A stretch of DNA of 64,000 bases from Keratinibaculum paraultunense. Lineage in GTDB: Bacteria > Bacillota > Clostridia > Tissierellales > Tepidimicrobiaceae. The stretch covers positions 868,001-932,000 of the forward strand of contig NZ_CP068564.1 in the NCBI RefSeq assembly GCF_016767175.1. The letters run 5' to 3'. Positions 2,806 to 55,935 of the stretch are shown piece after piece (the first letter of the stretch is position 1; every line of letters begins with the position of its first letter). The position numbers and the translations under genes were made by a program. Below the pieces are notes generated by a model. That model was not told the DNA's origin. It saw only the letters and a list, made by a program, of their open reading frames with translations, and made no database searches.

Positions 2806-3534
2806 ATGAATAATGTAGGAGAGGTTATAAATGAATTAGTCCAATGGCTAAGGTTAAAAGTAAAAGAAGCCAATAGTAATGGAGTGGTATTTGGATTAAG
2901 TGGTGGTGTAGATTCAGCTGTAGTAGCAGGATTAGCTAAAAGAGCTTTTCCTAATAATTCTTTAGGGATAATTATGCCTTGCCATAGTAATCCTATAGAT
3001 GAAGAACATGCTTTACTCGTAGCAGATAGTATAGGCTTAAAAACTGAAAAAGTTGACTTAACATCTGTTTATGATGAATTTATCGCCATGGTTCCTATTG
3101 AAAAAACTAATACTTTAGCTAAAGCTAATATAAAGCCCAGGTTAAGAATGACTACTTTATATTATTATGCAGCTTCATATAATTATTTGGTTTTAGGCTG
3201 CAGTAATAAGTCAGAGTTTACTATAGGATATTTCACTAAACATGGAGATAGTGGAGTTGATTTGTTTCCTATTGCAAATTTTGTTAAAAAAGACATTTGG
3301 GAAATGGCTGAATATTTGGATATTCCTCAGATAATAATTGAAAAACCTCCTACGGCCGGATTATGGGACGATCAAACAGATGAAGATGAAATAGGATTTG
3401 GATATGATATTTTGGATAATTATATATTATATAAAACAGGTCCAGAAAATATTGTGAAAAAAATTGAAAAAATGAATAAAACAAGTAAACATAAGAGAGA
3501 ATTCCCGCCTATTTTTATATCACAGAAAGAGTAA
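2806..3534 (+). CDS. nadE: NH3-dependent NAD+ synthetase
   Basis: 242 residues, the size of the ammonia-dependent NadE family without a glutaminase domain. It adenylates nicotinate adenine dinucleotide with ATP and amidates it to NAD+, the last step of NAD synthesis in the cytoplasm. The PP-loop signature GLSGGVDSAVVAG is at residues 29-41, and further conserved blocks GCSNKSEFTIGYFTKHGD and PTAGLWDDQTDEDEIGF are present. GGAGG lies 6-7 bases before the ATG. yebC follows about 55 bases downstream. Ammonia must come from free pools or an amidotransferase elsewhere. Confidence 0.94.
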   Translation: MNNVGEVINELVQWLRLKVKEANSNGVVFGLSGGVDSAVVAGLAKRAFPNNSLGIIMPCHSNPIDEEHALLVADSIGLKTEKVDLTSVYDEFIAMVPIEKTNTLAKANIKPRLRMTTLYYYAASYNYLVLGCSNKSEFTIGYFTKHGDSGVDLFPIANFVKKDIWEMAEYLDIPQIIIEKPPTAGLWDDQTDEDEIGFGYDILDNYILYKTGPENIVKKIEKMNKTSKHKREFPPIFISQKE

Positions 3535-40555: not shown

Positions 40556-40572
40556 AATATAAAGTTCATATA

Positions 40573-40798
40573 AACTATGATAGGAAGAGTAGGTATGGGA
40601 GGTAGTTCCAGGGAGTCGGGAATAGTGGGACCTCGATACGAAGCCTATATTGAAAAACATCCTTGAGTCTCTAACCGAAATCTTATAGGAGAGTAGGCTT
40701 AGACGGATTTAACCGTTATATTTAGTTTAAAGTGGCTATGTTTAGCAATTAGGGTGGTACCGCGAACCTTTCGTCCCTGTCAGGATGAAAGGTTTTTT
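40573..40798 (+). promoter_or_regulatory. T-box riboswitch controlling asnS (specifier AAC)
   Basis: A classical T-box leader: stem I base (ACTATGAT..AGGA pairing with TCCT..AGT), the specifier loop, the T-box AGGGTGGTACCGCG (40751-40764), and a terminator with arms 40765-40776 and 40783-40794 plus six T. The specifier is AAC at 40656-40658 (Asn), followed by purine A and TCCT, the same register as in the leuS leader. Uncharged tRNA-Asn should pair with AAC and with the TGGT bulge and prevent termination. Confidence 0.93.
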
Positions 40799-42266: not shown

Positions 42267-42287
42267 ACTTGTTAAAATTGTATATAA

Positions 42288-42512
42288 TCAATGATGGGAA
42301 GTAGTAAGCTATTGCATCAATTTCAGAGAACTGTTGGTTGGTGGGAAACAGTATTGATTTTAGCTGAACTCGTCCTGGAGTTGTTAAAGTGAAGTTTTAG
42401 TAGCTTTAACCGTTAACTTCGTTAAGGTTTTAAGAGGATAGTGTAATACTATCAACTTAGAGTGGTACCGCGGAATTATGCCTTTCGTCTCTATTTTGAC
42501 GAAAGGTTTTTT
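42288..42512 (+). promoter_or_regulatory. T-box riboswitch controlling leuS (specifier CTC)
   Basis: Stem I base CAATGAT..GGGA pairs with TCCT..GTTG. The specifier CTC (42369-42371, Leu) is followed by G and TCCT. The T-box AGAGTGGTACCGCGG is at 42459-42473. Terminator arms CCTTTCGTC (42481-42489) and GACGAAAGG (42498-42506) are followed by six T. Read-through should require uncharged tRNA-Leu with a GAG anticodon. Confidence 0.93.
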
Positions 42513-51975: not shown

Positions 51976-53157
51976 ATGAATATAATACATTCGGACGCTT
52001 TAACAAAGCTTTTAATGCTTTTAACTTGTATATTAGTAATTTTAATTATTTATTATTTAATACAAATTGGTAATAATCATGTAGATAAGGAAAAAGAAAT
52101 TCATATTAATAAAAAAATCATATTTCCATTATTAATTATCATATTATTTATATATTTATTATATATATTTATAAAAAAGTACGATTTTCTGTCAGATATC
52201 ATATTTACTATATTGATATCTTTAATATTTGCTTATTTATTAAATCCTTTAGTAAATTACTTTGAAAAACATAATATAAAAAGAAGTTGGGGAATTTTTA
52301 TTATATATGGAATTATAGTTGGTATTATATTAATATTTTCCTTTTTAGTAATACCAAAAACAGTCAAAGAATTAAAAAGATTAATATCTGTACTTCCTAT
52401 ATATTTTGAACGTATTTCTTATATTTTAAATGAATTATATATAAATATAGATAATATATCATCTGTATTTAATGGGATAGAGGAAATATTTATAGACAGT
52501 ATAAATAATATTCAAAATGTGATAGTAACTAGTATTAATAAATTTATTGAAGGAATTGTGTCCACTTTTTCGAAGATTATAAGTCTTATATTAATACCTA
52601 TATTAACCTTTTACTTTATAAAAGATAATGAATATTTTAAAAATAAAATTTATTTAACTATTCCTAAAAAGTATCGGAAAAAAACTGAAGCATTATTTTG
52701 TGAAATAAATCTAGTTCTTAGCCAATTTGTAAGAGGAAGATTACTATTAGCTATGTATGTAGGGTTAGTTACAACAATTATGTTATTAATATTAAAAGTG
52801 GATTTTGCAGTTATAATAGGTGTTATAACTGGCGTAGCTGACATTATACCATATATCGGACCTTTTTTGGGATTTTTGCCAGCAGTATTTTTTGCTTTAC
52901 TAGATAGTCCTATTAAAGCTTTATGGGTAGGAATTTTATTTATTTTAATACAATGGGTAGAAAATAATATATTAGCACCTAAAATAATTGGAGAGAGTAC
53001 AGGAATACATCCTATAACTATTCTTTTAGCATTAATTATAGGTGGAGGAATGTTTGGAGTTATAGGTATGATATTTTCTATTCCAATAATAGCTATATGG
53101 AATATATTATTTGATTTTATTATAGAAAATGTAAAAAAACCAAATAACATAAAATAA
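51976..53157 (+). CDS. AI-2E/PerM-family membrane transporter
   Basis: 393 residues with an extra N-terminal membrane helix (about 10-30), then the family core of about seven helices. Typical blocks: IFAYLLNPLVNYFEKHNIKR, VIPKTVKELKRLI, a long extracytoplasmic helical region, LILIPILTFYFIKDNEYFK, TGVADIIPYIGPFLGFLPA and IGESTGIHPITILLALIIGG. Members have been tied to autoinducer-2 export or Na+/H+ antiport; the substrate here is unknown. ATG start with AGGGGAAA upstream. Confidence 0.88.
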   Translation: MNIIHSDALTKLLMLLTCILVILIIYYLIQIGNNHVDKEKEIHINKKIIFPLLIIILFIYLLYIFIKKYDFLSDIIFTILISLIFAYLLNPLVNYFEKHNIKRSWGIFIIYGIIVGIILIFSFLVIPKTVKELKRLISVLPIYFERISYILNELYINIDNISSVFNGIEEIFIDSINNIQNVIVTSINKFIEGIVSTFSKIISLILIPILTFYFIKDNEYFKNKIYLTIPKKYRKKTEALFCEINLVLSQFVRGRLLLAMYVGLVTTIMLLILKVDFAVIIGVITGVADIIPYIGPFLGFLPAVFFALLDSPIKALWVGILFILIQWVENNILAPKIIGESTGIHPITILLALIIGGGMFGVIGMIFSIPIIAIWNILFDFIIENVKKPNNIK

Positions 53158-53177: not shown

Positions 53178-53206
53178 TTGACAAATCTTCAAGTTTAAAT
53201 TATAAT
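53178..53206 (+). promoter_or_regulatory. Consensus sigma-A promoter of alaS
   Basis: Perfect TTGACA (53178-53183), 17-base spacer, perfect TATAAT (53201-53206). The start would be near 53213, only about 20 bases before a terminator hairpin. Confidence 0.85.
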
Positions 53207-53233
53207 CCAAGTATAGACATTAACGTAATAAAA

Positions 53234-53262
53234 CGTCCCTTTACTGAGGGACGAATTTTTTA
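53234..53262 (+). terminator. Terminator-like hairpin in the alaS leader
   Basis: CGTCCCT (53234-53240) pairs with AGGGACG (53247-53253) around loop TTACTG, followed by AATTTTTT. It lies between the promoter and the alaS ATG, so it looks like an attenuator instead of an end-of-gene terminator. No T-box sequence is present. Confidence 0.8.
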
Positions 53263-53298
53263 TAAAAACAAGACTATTTTTAGAGAGGTGTACAATAG

Positions 53299-55935
53299 AT
53301 GAAAAAAATTGGCTTACATGAGATAAGACAGGAATTTATAGATTTTTTTAAAGATAAAGGCCACTTAGTTATAAAAAGTTTTCCTTTAATACCTAAAAAT
53401 GATAAAAGTTTATTATTGATAAATGCAGGCATGGCACCACTTAAACCTTATTTTACAGGTGAAAAAACGCCACCGAGTAAAAGAATTGTTACTTGCCAAA
53501 AATGTATAAGAACAGCAGATATAGAAAATGTAGGGAAAACCGATCGGCATGCTACTTTCTTTGAGATGCTTGGTAATTTTTCTTTTGGCGATTATTTTAA
53601 ACGTGAGGCTATAGAATGGGCTTGGGAATTTTTAACGGAACGTTTGGAAATTCCTAAAGAAGATTTATGGGTATCCATATATAAAGAGGATGATGAGGCA
53701 TTTAAAATTTGGAATGAGGTTATAGGGTTAGAAAAAGAAAAAATAGTTCCCTTGGGAAAAGAAGATAATTTTTGGGAATTAGAAATAGGACCTTGTGGAC
53801 CTTGTTCTGAAATATATATAGATAGAGGTAAAAAATACGGATGTGGTAAGAAAGATTGTAAGCCAGGCTGTGATTGCGAGAGATTTATTGAAATTTGGAA
53901 TTTGGTATTTACACAATATGATAAGGATAAAAATGGCGAATACCATCCCCTAGAGCATCCAAATATAGATACAGGTATGGGACTTGAAAGAATTACTGCA
54001 ATCATAGAAGGAGCAAGAAATATATTTGAAATAGAAGAAATACAGCATATACTAAAATTTGTAGAAAAAACTTCTGGAAAGAAATATGGAATAGACCCAT
54101 CAGTAGATACTTCTATTAGAGTTATTACAGACCATAGTAGAGCTATAACTTTTATGGTTTCTGATGGTATATTACCTAGCAATGAAGGAAGAGGATATGT
54201 TTTAAGACGTTTAATAAGAAGAGCAGCAAGGCATGGGAAATTATTGGGTATAGAAGAGCCTTTTTTGAATAAAATTGTAGATGTAGTTATATCTTCCTGG
54301 AAGGTTGAATATCCAGAATTAGAAGAAAAAAAAGTTCAGATAAAAAAAGTTATACAAGCTGAAGAAGAGAAATTTCAAGAAACTATACATCAAGGTATTA
54401 ATATATTGGAAAATTATATTGAAGAACTTATTTCAAAAGGTGATAAATGTTTAAGTGGAAAAAATGCATTTAAATTATATGATACCTATGGATTTCCATT
54501 AGACTTAACTAGAGAAATATTAGAAGAAAAGGGATTAACTGTAGATGAGAAAGGTTTTAACCAACAAATGGAAAAACAAAGAAATATGGCTAGAAAAGCT
54601 AGAAAATCAGTTGTAGATTCAGGATGGAAAAATGCTCAATCTACAGAATTATTTAGTGATTATGATACCCAATTTGTAGGATATGATATTTTGGAAATAG
54701 AAACAAAAGTTTTAGGATTATTTAAGCAAGGAGAAGCTATTGAAAATTTAGAAGAATATGATCAGGGGATTATTATTCTTAAAGAAACCCCTTTCTATGG
54801 CGAAAGTGGAGGGCAAGTAGGAGATACAGGGTATATAAGAGGAGAAAATTTTGTAGCTAGAGTATTAGATACTAAACGTATTGATGATGTAATTGTTCAT
54901 TTTATAAATGTAGAAAATGGTAGAGTAAGTGTAGAAGAACCAGTATACGCTATAGTTGATAAAGATCGTAGAGAAAATATTAAAAGGAACCATTCTGCTA
55001 CCCATCTACTACACAGAGCTTTAAAAGATATATTAGGAGAACATGTAAATCAAGCTGGTTCTATAGTATTACCCGATAGATTGAGATTTGACTTTACTCA
55101 TTATGAACCTGTAAGAGAAGAACAATTAAAGGAAATAGAAAGGATAGTGAATAAAAAGATATTAGAATCTTTAGAGGTAAAAATTATAAATACGACATTA
55201 AATGAATCTCAGAAAATGGGAGCAGTAGGACTGTTTGAAGATAAATATGAAGATGAAGTTAGGATTGTACAGATGGGAGATTATTCTAAAGAACTTTGTG
55301 GTGGTACTCATGTAGATAATACTAGTAATATAGGGCTGTTTAAAATTATTTCTGAGTCTAGTATTGCAGCTGGTGTTAGAAGAATTGAAGCTATTACTGG
55401 GTATGCAGTTTATGAATATATAAATCAAATGGAGAAGGATATTCAAAATATCAGTAGCATATTAAAAACTGATAGAAGTCAATTAACTGATAGAATATAT
55501 AATTTGATAGAAGAGCTTAAAAAAAAGGAAAAAGAGCTAAATTCATTAAAATCTAAAATGGCATCCTCTATAGCAGAAGATATAATTAATAAAAGTGTCA
55601 AAGTAGATGGTGTAAACTTAATAAGTTATAAAATAGAAGATATGGACATGGATAGTTTGAGAAATTTAGGCGATGAGATTAAAAATACTATAGATTCTGG
55701 AATAATAGTTTTAGCAAGTATTGATAAAAACAAGGTATCTTTTGTTTCTATGGTTACTAAGGATTTAGTAAACAAAGGTTTCCATGCTGGTAATATTATC
55801 AAGGAAGTGGCTAAGATTACTGATGGAGGCGGAGGAGGTCGTCCAGATATGGCACAAGCTGGAGGGAAAAATATAAATAAAGTTGAAGAAGCCTTAAGTA
55901 TGATTCCCAGCATAATAAAAAAACAAATAGAATAA
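53299..55935 (+). CDS. alaS: Alanyl-tRNA synthetase
   Basis: 878 residues, full length. Class II catalytic core (KSFPLIPKNDKSLLLINAGMAPLK; RIVTCQKCIRTADIENVGK; DTGMGLERI), editing domain with zinc ligands HSATHLLH and CGGTH, and a C-terminal C-Ala domain (GGGGGGRPDMAQAGG). It charges tRNA-Ala and clears Ser/Gly-tRNA-Ala. ATG start with AGAGAGGTG upstream. A hairpin terminator follows. ireB is the next gene, the same order as in many Firmicutes. Confidence 0.97.
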   Translation: MKKIGLHEIRQEFIDFFKDKGHLVIKSFPLIPKNDKSLLLINAGMAPLKPYFTGEKTPPSKRIVTCQKCIRTADIENVGKTDRHATFFEMLGNFSFGDYFKREAIEWAWEFLTERLEIPKEDLWVSIYKEDDEAFKIWNEVIGLEKEKIVPLGKEDNFWELEIGPCGPCSEIYIDRGKKYGCGKKDCKPGCDCERFIEIWNLVFTQYDKDKNGEYHPLEHPNIDTGMGLERITAIIEGARNIFEIEEIQHILKFVEKTSGKKYGIDPSVDTSIRVITDHSRAITFMVSDGILPSNEGRGYVLRRLIRRAARHGKLLGIEEPFLNKIVDVVISSWKVEYPELEEKKVQIKKVIQAEEEKFQETIHQGINILENYIEELISKGDKCLSGKNAFKLYDTYGFPLDLTREILEEKGLTVDEKGFNQQMEKQRNMARKARKSVVDSGWKNAQSTELFSDYDTQFVGYDILEIETKVLGLFKQGEAIENLEEYDQGIIILKETPFYGESGGQVGDTGYIRGENFVARVLDTKRIDDVIVHFINVENGRVSVEEPVYAIVDKDRRENIKRNHSATHLLHRALKDILGEHVNQAGSIVLPDRLRFDFTHYEPVREEQLKEIERIVNKKILESLEVKIINTTLNESQKMGAVGLFEDKYEDEVRIVQMGDYSKELCGGTHVDNTSNIGLFKIISESSIAAGVRRIEAITGYAVYEYINQMEKDIQNISSILKTDRSQLTDRIYNLIEELKKKEKELNSLKSKMASSIAEDIINKSVKVDGVNLISYKIEDMDMDSLRNLGDEIKNTIDSGIIVLASIDKNKVSFVSMVTKDLVNKGFHAGNIIKEVAKITDGGGGGRPDMAQAGGKNINKVEEALSMIPSIIKKQIE

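Follow-up and report, generated by a model that had tools for sequence, protein, structure and literature searches.

Results

A promoter-proximal terminator without a T-box precedes alaS

The window, that is, the whole 64,000-nt stretch of Keratinibaculum paraultunense DNA that was analysed (assembly GCF_016767175.1, contig NZ_CP068564.1, positions 868,001 to 932,000 of the forward strand), carries the alanyl-tRNA synthetase gene alaS behind a gene for an AI-2E family permease (Table 1). The permease stop codon lies 20 nt upstream of the alaS -35 box, and no terminator was seen in the window sequence between the permease gene and the alaS promoter. The promoter consists of a -35 box (TTGACA, 53178-53183), a 17-nt spacer and a -10 box (TATAAT, 53201-53206), the latter with CC directly behind it, which the remaining 19 family members share, and it is the only 12/12 consensus match on either strand between 50000 and 57500. 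From its spacing, the +1 of the alaS transcript is predicted near 53213. The terminator hairpin, CGTCCCT(TTACTG)AGGGACG, begins 27 nt past the -10 box. Together with its T run, this pattern has a single plus-strand match across the window and, with up to three mismatches, two matches against 0.02 expected from shuffles, the second being the same hairpin on the minus strand. The 86-nt leader folds with z = −2.7 (3 of 200 shuffles were equally good). A preliminary description, made from the sequence, had reported a perfect promoter followed by an early terminator, and this anatomy stands. One other CGTCCC..GGGACG hairpin exists in the genome (G000:C1:1771507-1771528, L128) and has no T-box; it was rejected as a related leader, being the terminator between two convergent genes.

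Table 1. Elements of the permease-alaS region and the basis on which each was assigned.
Feature	Position	Strand	Basis
Upstream gene, AI-2E family permease	51976..53157	+	ORF; PF01594, E 1e-69
alaS promoter, TTGACA-17-TATAAT	53178..53206	+	sequence, promoter scan, family comparison
Start region and ~20-nt leader, no sensor, no T-box	53207..53233	+	sequence, Rfam; predicted start from spacing
Terminator hairpin, 8 pairs, −12.3 kcal/mol	53234..53253	+	sequence, folding
T run of terminator, six T after two A	53256..53261	+	sequence
Ribosome-binding site AGAGAGGTG	53282..53290	+	sequence; AGGTG common to family alignment
alaS, alanyl-tRNA synthetase, ATG 53299	53299..55935	+	ORF; PF01411, E 4e-207

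Rfam identifies T-boxes in the window at 40568-40781 (asnS) and 42282-42495 (leuS), and 15 T-box matches genome-wide, 12 of them above the family cut-off; alaS is not among them. From their translations, we take the downstream ORFs to be ileS, leuS, valS, argS, metG, asnA, proS and cysK and, further, asnS, trpB, aspS, serS, tyrS, thrS and glyQ. In the alaS leader of the window, no T-box (RF00230) match appears at the gathering score or at E ≤ 10, in agreement with the preliminary description, which had set alaS apart from asnS and leuS on this point. Also absent from this leader is the T-box sequence with its UGGN bulge, the site of pairing with the tRNA 3′ end; among relatives, UGG precedes the hairpin in 7/69 alaS leaders and AGGG in 1/69. 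The leader does have an intrinsic terminator, as RF00230 leaders do. It has no covariance model match, bulge or antiterminator, and so does not qualify as a T-box.

The short architecture recurs in related families

In the alaS leaders of all 20 family genomes, a hairpin with its T run lies no more than 30 nt behind the promoter, so the hairpin conservation that the preliminary description had proposed to look for is indeed present. An order-level survey gave an alaS match in 148 of 150 genomes, and 72 upstream stretches were read outside the family (60 fetched plus 12 search loci), besides additional stretches from family f4 (20, then 40, plus 22 loci); L307, in which no start was located, is not included. 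T-boxes were recognised by motif in 18 of the 72, and the short promoter-hairpin architecture recurs in families f2, f4, f5, f13 and f15 and in two f16 genomes. Counted over 69 leaders, which leave aside the weak hairpins of L141, L150, L180 and L317, the hairpin starts a median of 18 nt past the -10 box and ends a median of 34 nt (minimum 18 nt) ahead of the start codon. Its stems vary in sequence yet pair (CGTCCC/GGGACG, CCTCCC/GGGAGG, CTCCTCC/GGAGGAG, GCCCC/GGGGC, TCGGCC/GGCCGA). The T run and the ribosome-binding site of L088 and L092 are less than 15 nt apart, so that no promoter would fit downstream of the hairpin in these two, which makes a transcript start beyond 53262, named in the preliminary description as evidence against attenuation, unlikely.

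The leader sequence between promoter and hairpin diverges between families, and a 95-nt DNA search recovered the leader in only 2 of 21 genomes because it is too diverged for such a search. This divergence bears on the proposal that the terminated transcript of ~50 nt is itself a functional small RNA. A strong promoter and a short predicted transcript with its own terminator are what such an RNA would have; however, its 5′ part varies between families and nothing in Rfam matches near a gathering score, so that we regard a small RNA as very improbable.

Relation to alaS T-box leaders

One survey lists alaS with the genes that T-boxes control most frequently, reporting them before it in no fewer than 29 of 34 Firmicutes (PMC2494555). 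By motif, 19 of 78 Clostridia loci have an alaS T-box (two of 80 had insufficient upstream sequence), and in the order a complete T-box precedes alaS in families f6, f7, f8, f9, f12, f17 and f18 and in two f16 genomes. In a first AlaRS tree of 93 rows, drawn up without L102 (a partial reading), named/unnamed duplicates and most Clostridia loci outside the order, families f1 (the host family), f2, f4, f5, f13 and f15 form one 50-row clade with SH-aLRT 100, this measure being the only support computed for both trees, which were made by a quick method under a simple model. The clade holds 45 short leaders, five rows with none and no T-box, and alaS T-boxes sit in further families of the order and beyond it; over the whole tree, at least five changes between T-box and short leader are required.

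Full alaS T-box leaders in several sister families share the promoter flank TTGACAAA...TATAATCC with the short leaders, and those of f7, f9 and f16 start TTGACA...TATAATCC (8 of 17 alaS T-box promoters). The same TATAATCC is found in 20/20 f1 leaders against 12/284 TATAAT sites of the window, and in 0/15 promoters from the T-box-controlled genes of this genome. We built a matrix from the flanks of T-box alaS promoters, hexamer left out, and took as reference the 95% point of the window TATAAT sites (−0.7). Above it are 19/20 f1, 12/16 f5, 5/5 f13, 1/1 f15, 3/3 f10 and 1/1 f11 promoters; the promoter of the window itself scores −1.6, just under that point. Promoters of f4 (2/8 above, 6/8 below) and the single f2 leader (−1.2, below) do not resemble T-box promoters. 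The CGTCCC 5′ arm is common among T-box terminators. The motif TATAATCC..TATAG occurs at three places in the genome against control counts of 0 and 2; a looser version was near chance in the window and was not used.

A search with a profile and shuffled alignments found no sensor remnant. From the promoter flanks and the tree, no such remnant being found, we infer that the short leader is most likely an alaS T-box leader whose sensor was lost by internal deletion. The separate kind of attenuation device suggested in the preliminary description is not borne out, since most relatives have a promoter flank like that of sister-family alaS T-box leaders, and a sensorless T-box descendant, rather than a new class of attenuator, is the most likely identity of the leader.

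By eye, the f1 linker AACGTGAATTCTCGTCCC resembles a T-box end (CCGCG..CTCGTCCC), a likeness on which we did not rely. In f11 (L161/L219), 280-90 nt before alaS, a leader of ~160 nt runs from the promoter to a CTCGTCCC terminator with no detectable T-box; its interpretation by eye as a half-decayed T-box was rejected, as it had no profile match and 341 of 500 shuffles scored as high. In f10 (L174/L223), 180-60 nt before alaS, a ~90-nt leader is followed by a TTCGTCT terminator. Outside the order, L007 and L008 (Caldanaerobacter, Thermoanaerobacter) have in the last ~110 nt before alaS, at 3001, a promoter and then ACGGG...CCCGTCCC...GGGACGG, with a possible ACGGG/CCCGT competitor pairing; by the AlaRS tree, their short architecture appears to be of separate origin. 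In L042, ~210-100 nt before alaS at 495, what looks by eye like a T-box end (AGGGCATTACCGCG..CTTCGTCCC) stands right behind the promoter, leaving no room for Stem I. As candidate Stem I-less T-boxes, this leader and L011, both from Clostridia outside the order, were rejected when Rfam gave no match.

Sensing and termination

No general antiterminator was found in 52 leaders, in which the competing fold, that is, the fold available ahead of the 3′ arm of the terminator, averaged −2.81 kcal/mol against −2.45 kcal/mol in shuffles, with 7 of 100 shuffle sets as low. Nor was a leader peptide found: an ORF of at least four codons is present in only 4 of 69 leaders, one of them with an Ala codon, which places the leader outside peptide-coding attenuators. 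None of the 15 T-box terminators in this genome is as weak as the window hairpin; they range from −14.3 to −24.7 kcal/mol. Since neither a bulge nor a leader peptide turned up in the leader, Rfam gave no match, a general antiterminator is lacking and the hairpin is the weaker one, attenuation at this site is likely fixed and would be leaky in the cell. Leakiness fits poorly in f4, whose hairpins (median −15.0 kcal/mol) match in strength the alaS T-box terminators found across the order (median −14.8 kcal/mol).

Two leaders, of f13 (L143) and f2 (L144), have a competing fold comparable to the terminator. That of L143 pairs AGAGTAGGG, lying upstream, with the 5′ arm of the terminator (−9.5 versus −8.4 kcal/mol), and L144 has GAGUU/AACUC. 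The leaders of f13 (L143, L140, L142) and f2 (L144) may be true compact antiterminators.

The hairpin and the upstream gene

In 72 of 76 hairpin leaders the upstream gene ends no more than 30 nt from the -35 box, too close for another terminator to fit, which makes the hairpin the first that polymerases leaving that gene could meet. The script could not read the other four, among which L129 has a gap of 12 nt. In genus g33 (8 genomes), G138, G203, G088 and G106, the upstream gene has a terminator of its own ahead of the promoter, and there the hairpin of the leader is lost or eroded. Across 87 tree rows, 70 have the hairpin without an upstream terminator, 12 an upstream terminator without the hairpin, three neither and two both; among these rows, all with an alaS promoter of their own, the hairpin is missing in 12 of 14 with an upstream terminator versus 3 of 73 where none was seen. 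This tally leaves aside 15 rows whose alaS promoter is absent or unclear, all T-box rows, and families f6-f12, f14 and f16-f19. Its states were assigned by hand from script and reading; the script had missed the upstream terminators of L196, L247, L249 and L133 and the hairpins of L141, L146 and L191.

On the tree, upstream terminators were gained independently four times, twice with loss of the hairpin and twice without (L133, hairpin intact; L317, hairpin weakened), giving p = 0.5 in a sign test. The hairpin has also been lost without an upstream terminator (L180, G216, G217), and in f10 (L164, L175) an alaS promoter is present with no hairpin or terminator. In many f4 genomes, the permease or another gene runs straight into alaS with neither promoter nor hairpin. 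Maintenance of the hairpin by the need of the upstream gene for a terminator is the best fit, not a proven one, and the argument is only suggestive because just four independent changes underlie it.

The stronger claim would be that the hairpin is the permease terminator only, alaS being transcribed mainly from another start or polymerases from its promoter passing almost freely. The permease has no other terminator, and six genomes with no visible alaS promoter (G108, G233, G234, G245, G192, G117) keep a hairpin right behind the upstream stop. Yet a consensus promoter lies ahead of the hairpin in every one of the family genomes, and the promoter scan found no second promoter-like site between the hairpin and the alaS ATG, for which reasons we hold this claim to be unlikely. 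The preliminary description had made attenuator and permease end an either/or, a choice that is too sharp: the hairpin does lie behind the alaS promoter, and at the same time its presence tends to track whether the upstream gene has a terminator elsewhere.

A regulated attenuator deserves consideration here, in which something acting in trans would open the alaS hairpin in place of the lost T-box, be it AlaRS, a different RNA-binding protein or the state of the polymerase. Strong promoter and terminator are kept together across families with stems that pair despite differing sequence, the L133 hairpin is intact although the upstream gene has another terminator, and the competing folds of L143 and L144 would suit such control. 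Against it stand the missing general antiterminator, a leader sequence that is unconserved between families and the tendency of the hairpin to go when the upstream gene has its own terminator. We consider regulation of this kind possible but doubtful. Self-regulation by AlaRS and a small RNA, the options of the preliminary description, did not gain support, and both keep some probability.

Discussion

The reading towards which we lean, with confidence barely above even, is that the T-box before alaS survives only as a shell: the sensor has been lost, termination has become fixed and leaky, and the hairpin is kept mainly for the sake of the upstream permease. In an ancestor, tRNA sensor and antiterminator would have dropped out, an internal deletion being the simplest route, while promoter and terminator stayed. 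RNA polymerase would then start at the predicted +1 and soon meet a rather weak intrinsic terminator ending near 53261, where part of the polymerases would read through into alaS; such attenuation would be fixed, leaky and non-sensing, and the strong promoter could balance the partial, unregulated termination. The hairpin may have been retained mainly because it ends or damps transcription of the permease gene, which has no other visible terminator.

The closest known system is the alaS T-box itself (RF00230; C. acetobutylicum, B. subtilis), which the short leader resembles in gene, in position and in having an intrinsic terminator whose 5′ arm is of the CGTCCC type; the promoter flank is shared too in several sister families. 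Unlike the T-box, the short leader has no Stem I, T-box sequence, tRNA-pairing bulge or antiterminator, and only ~20 nt precede its terminator instead of more than 200. In the alaS T-box deletion variants described in PMC4695836, only Stem II and IIA/B are missing. Our literature search found no published sensorless alaS leader, a search that is not enough to show absence from print.

Compact attenuators free of an aptamer do exist, such as the pyrG leader, in which a promoter, ~20-30 nt and a terminator follow one another and control is exerted by reiterative G addition at the start of the transcript. The alaS leader of the window has this layout, but no G run at its start, and the sole Rfam match of PyrG_leader falls on the opposite strand, with E 5.2 and 17.5 bits where the gathering score is 65. 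Lineage-wise exchange of a T-box also has a precedent in the histidine genes of Gram-positive bacteria, where HisR, T-boxes and attenuators are described as substituting for one another (PMC9413887); in contrast, the short alaS leader has no known replacement regulator. The sensorless terminator might also be kept as a minimal switch of ~50 nt, with a trans factor (for example AlaRS) or the initiating polymerase setting read-through, such that polymerases from the alaS promoter pass and those from the upstream gene stop; we rate this idea as rather unlikely.

If the alaS leader is indeed a T-box that has lost its sensor, it suggests how a riboswitch may die: the sensor goes and the expression platform persists through a whole clade. 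The related leaders offer a natural series for asking whether a promoter-proximal terminator is tolerated because the neighbouring gene needs it, and a clade without an alaS T-box raises the question of how the supply of alanyl-tRNA is balanced in these bacteria.
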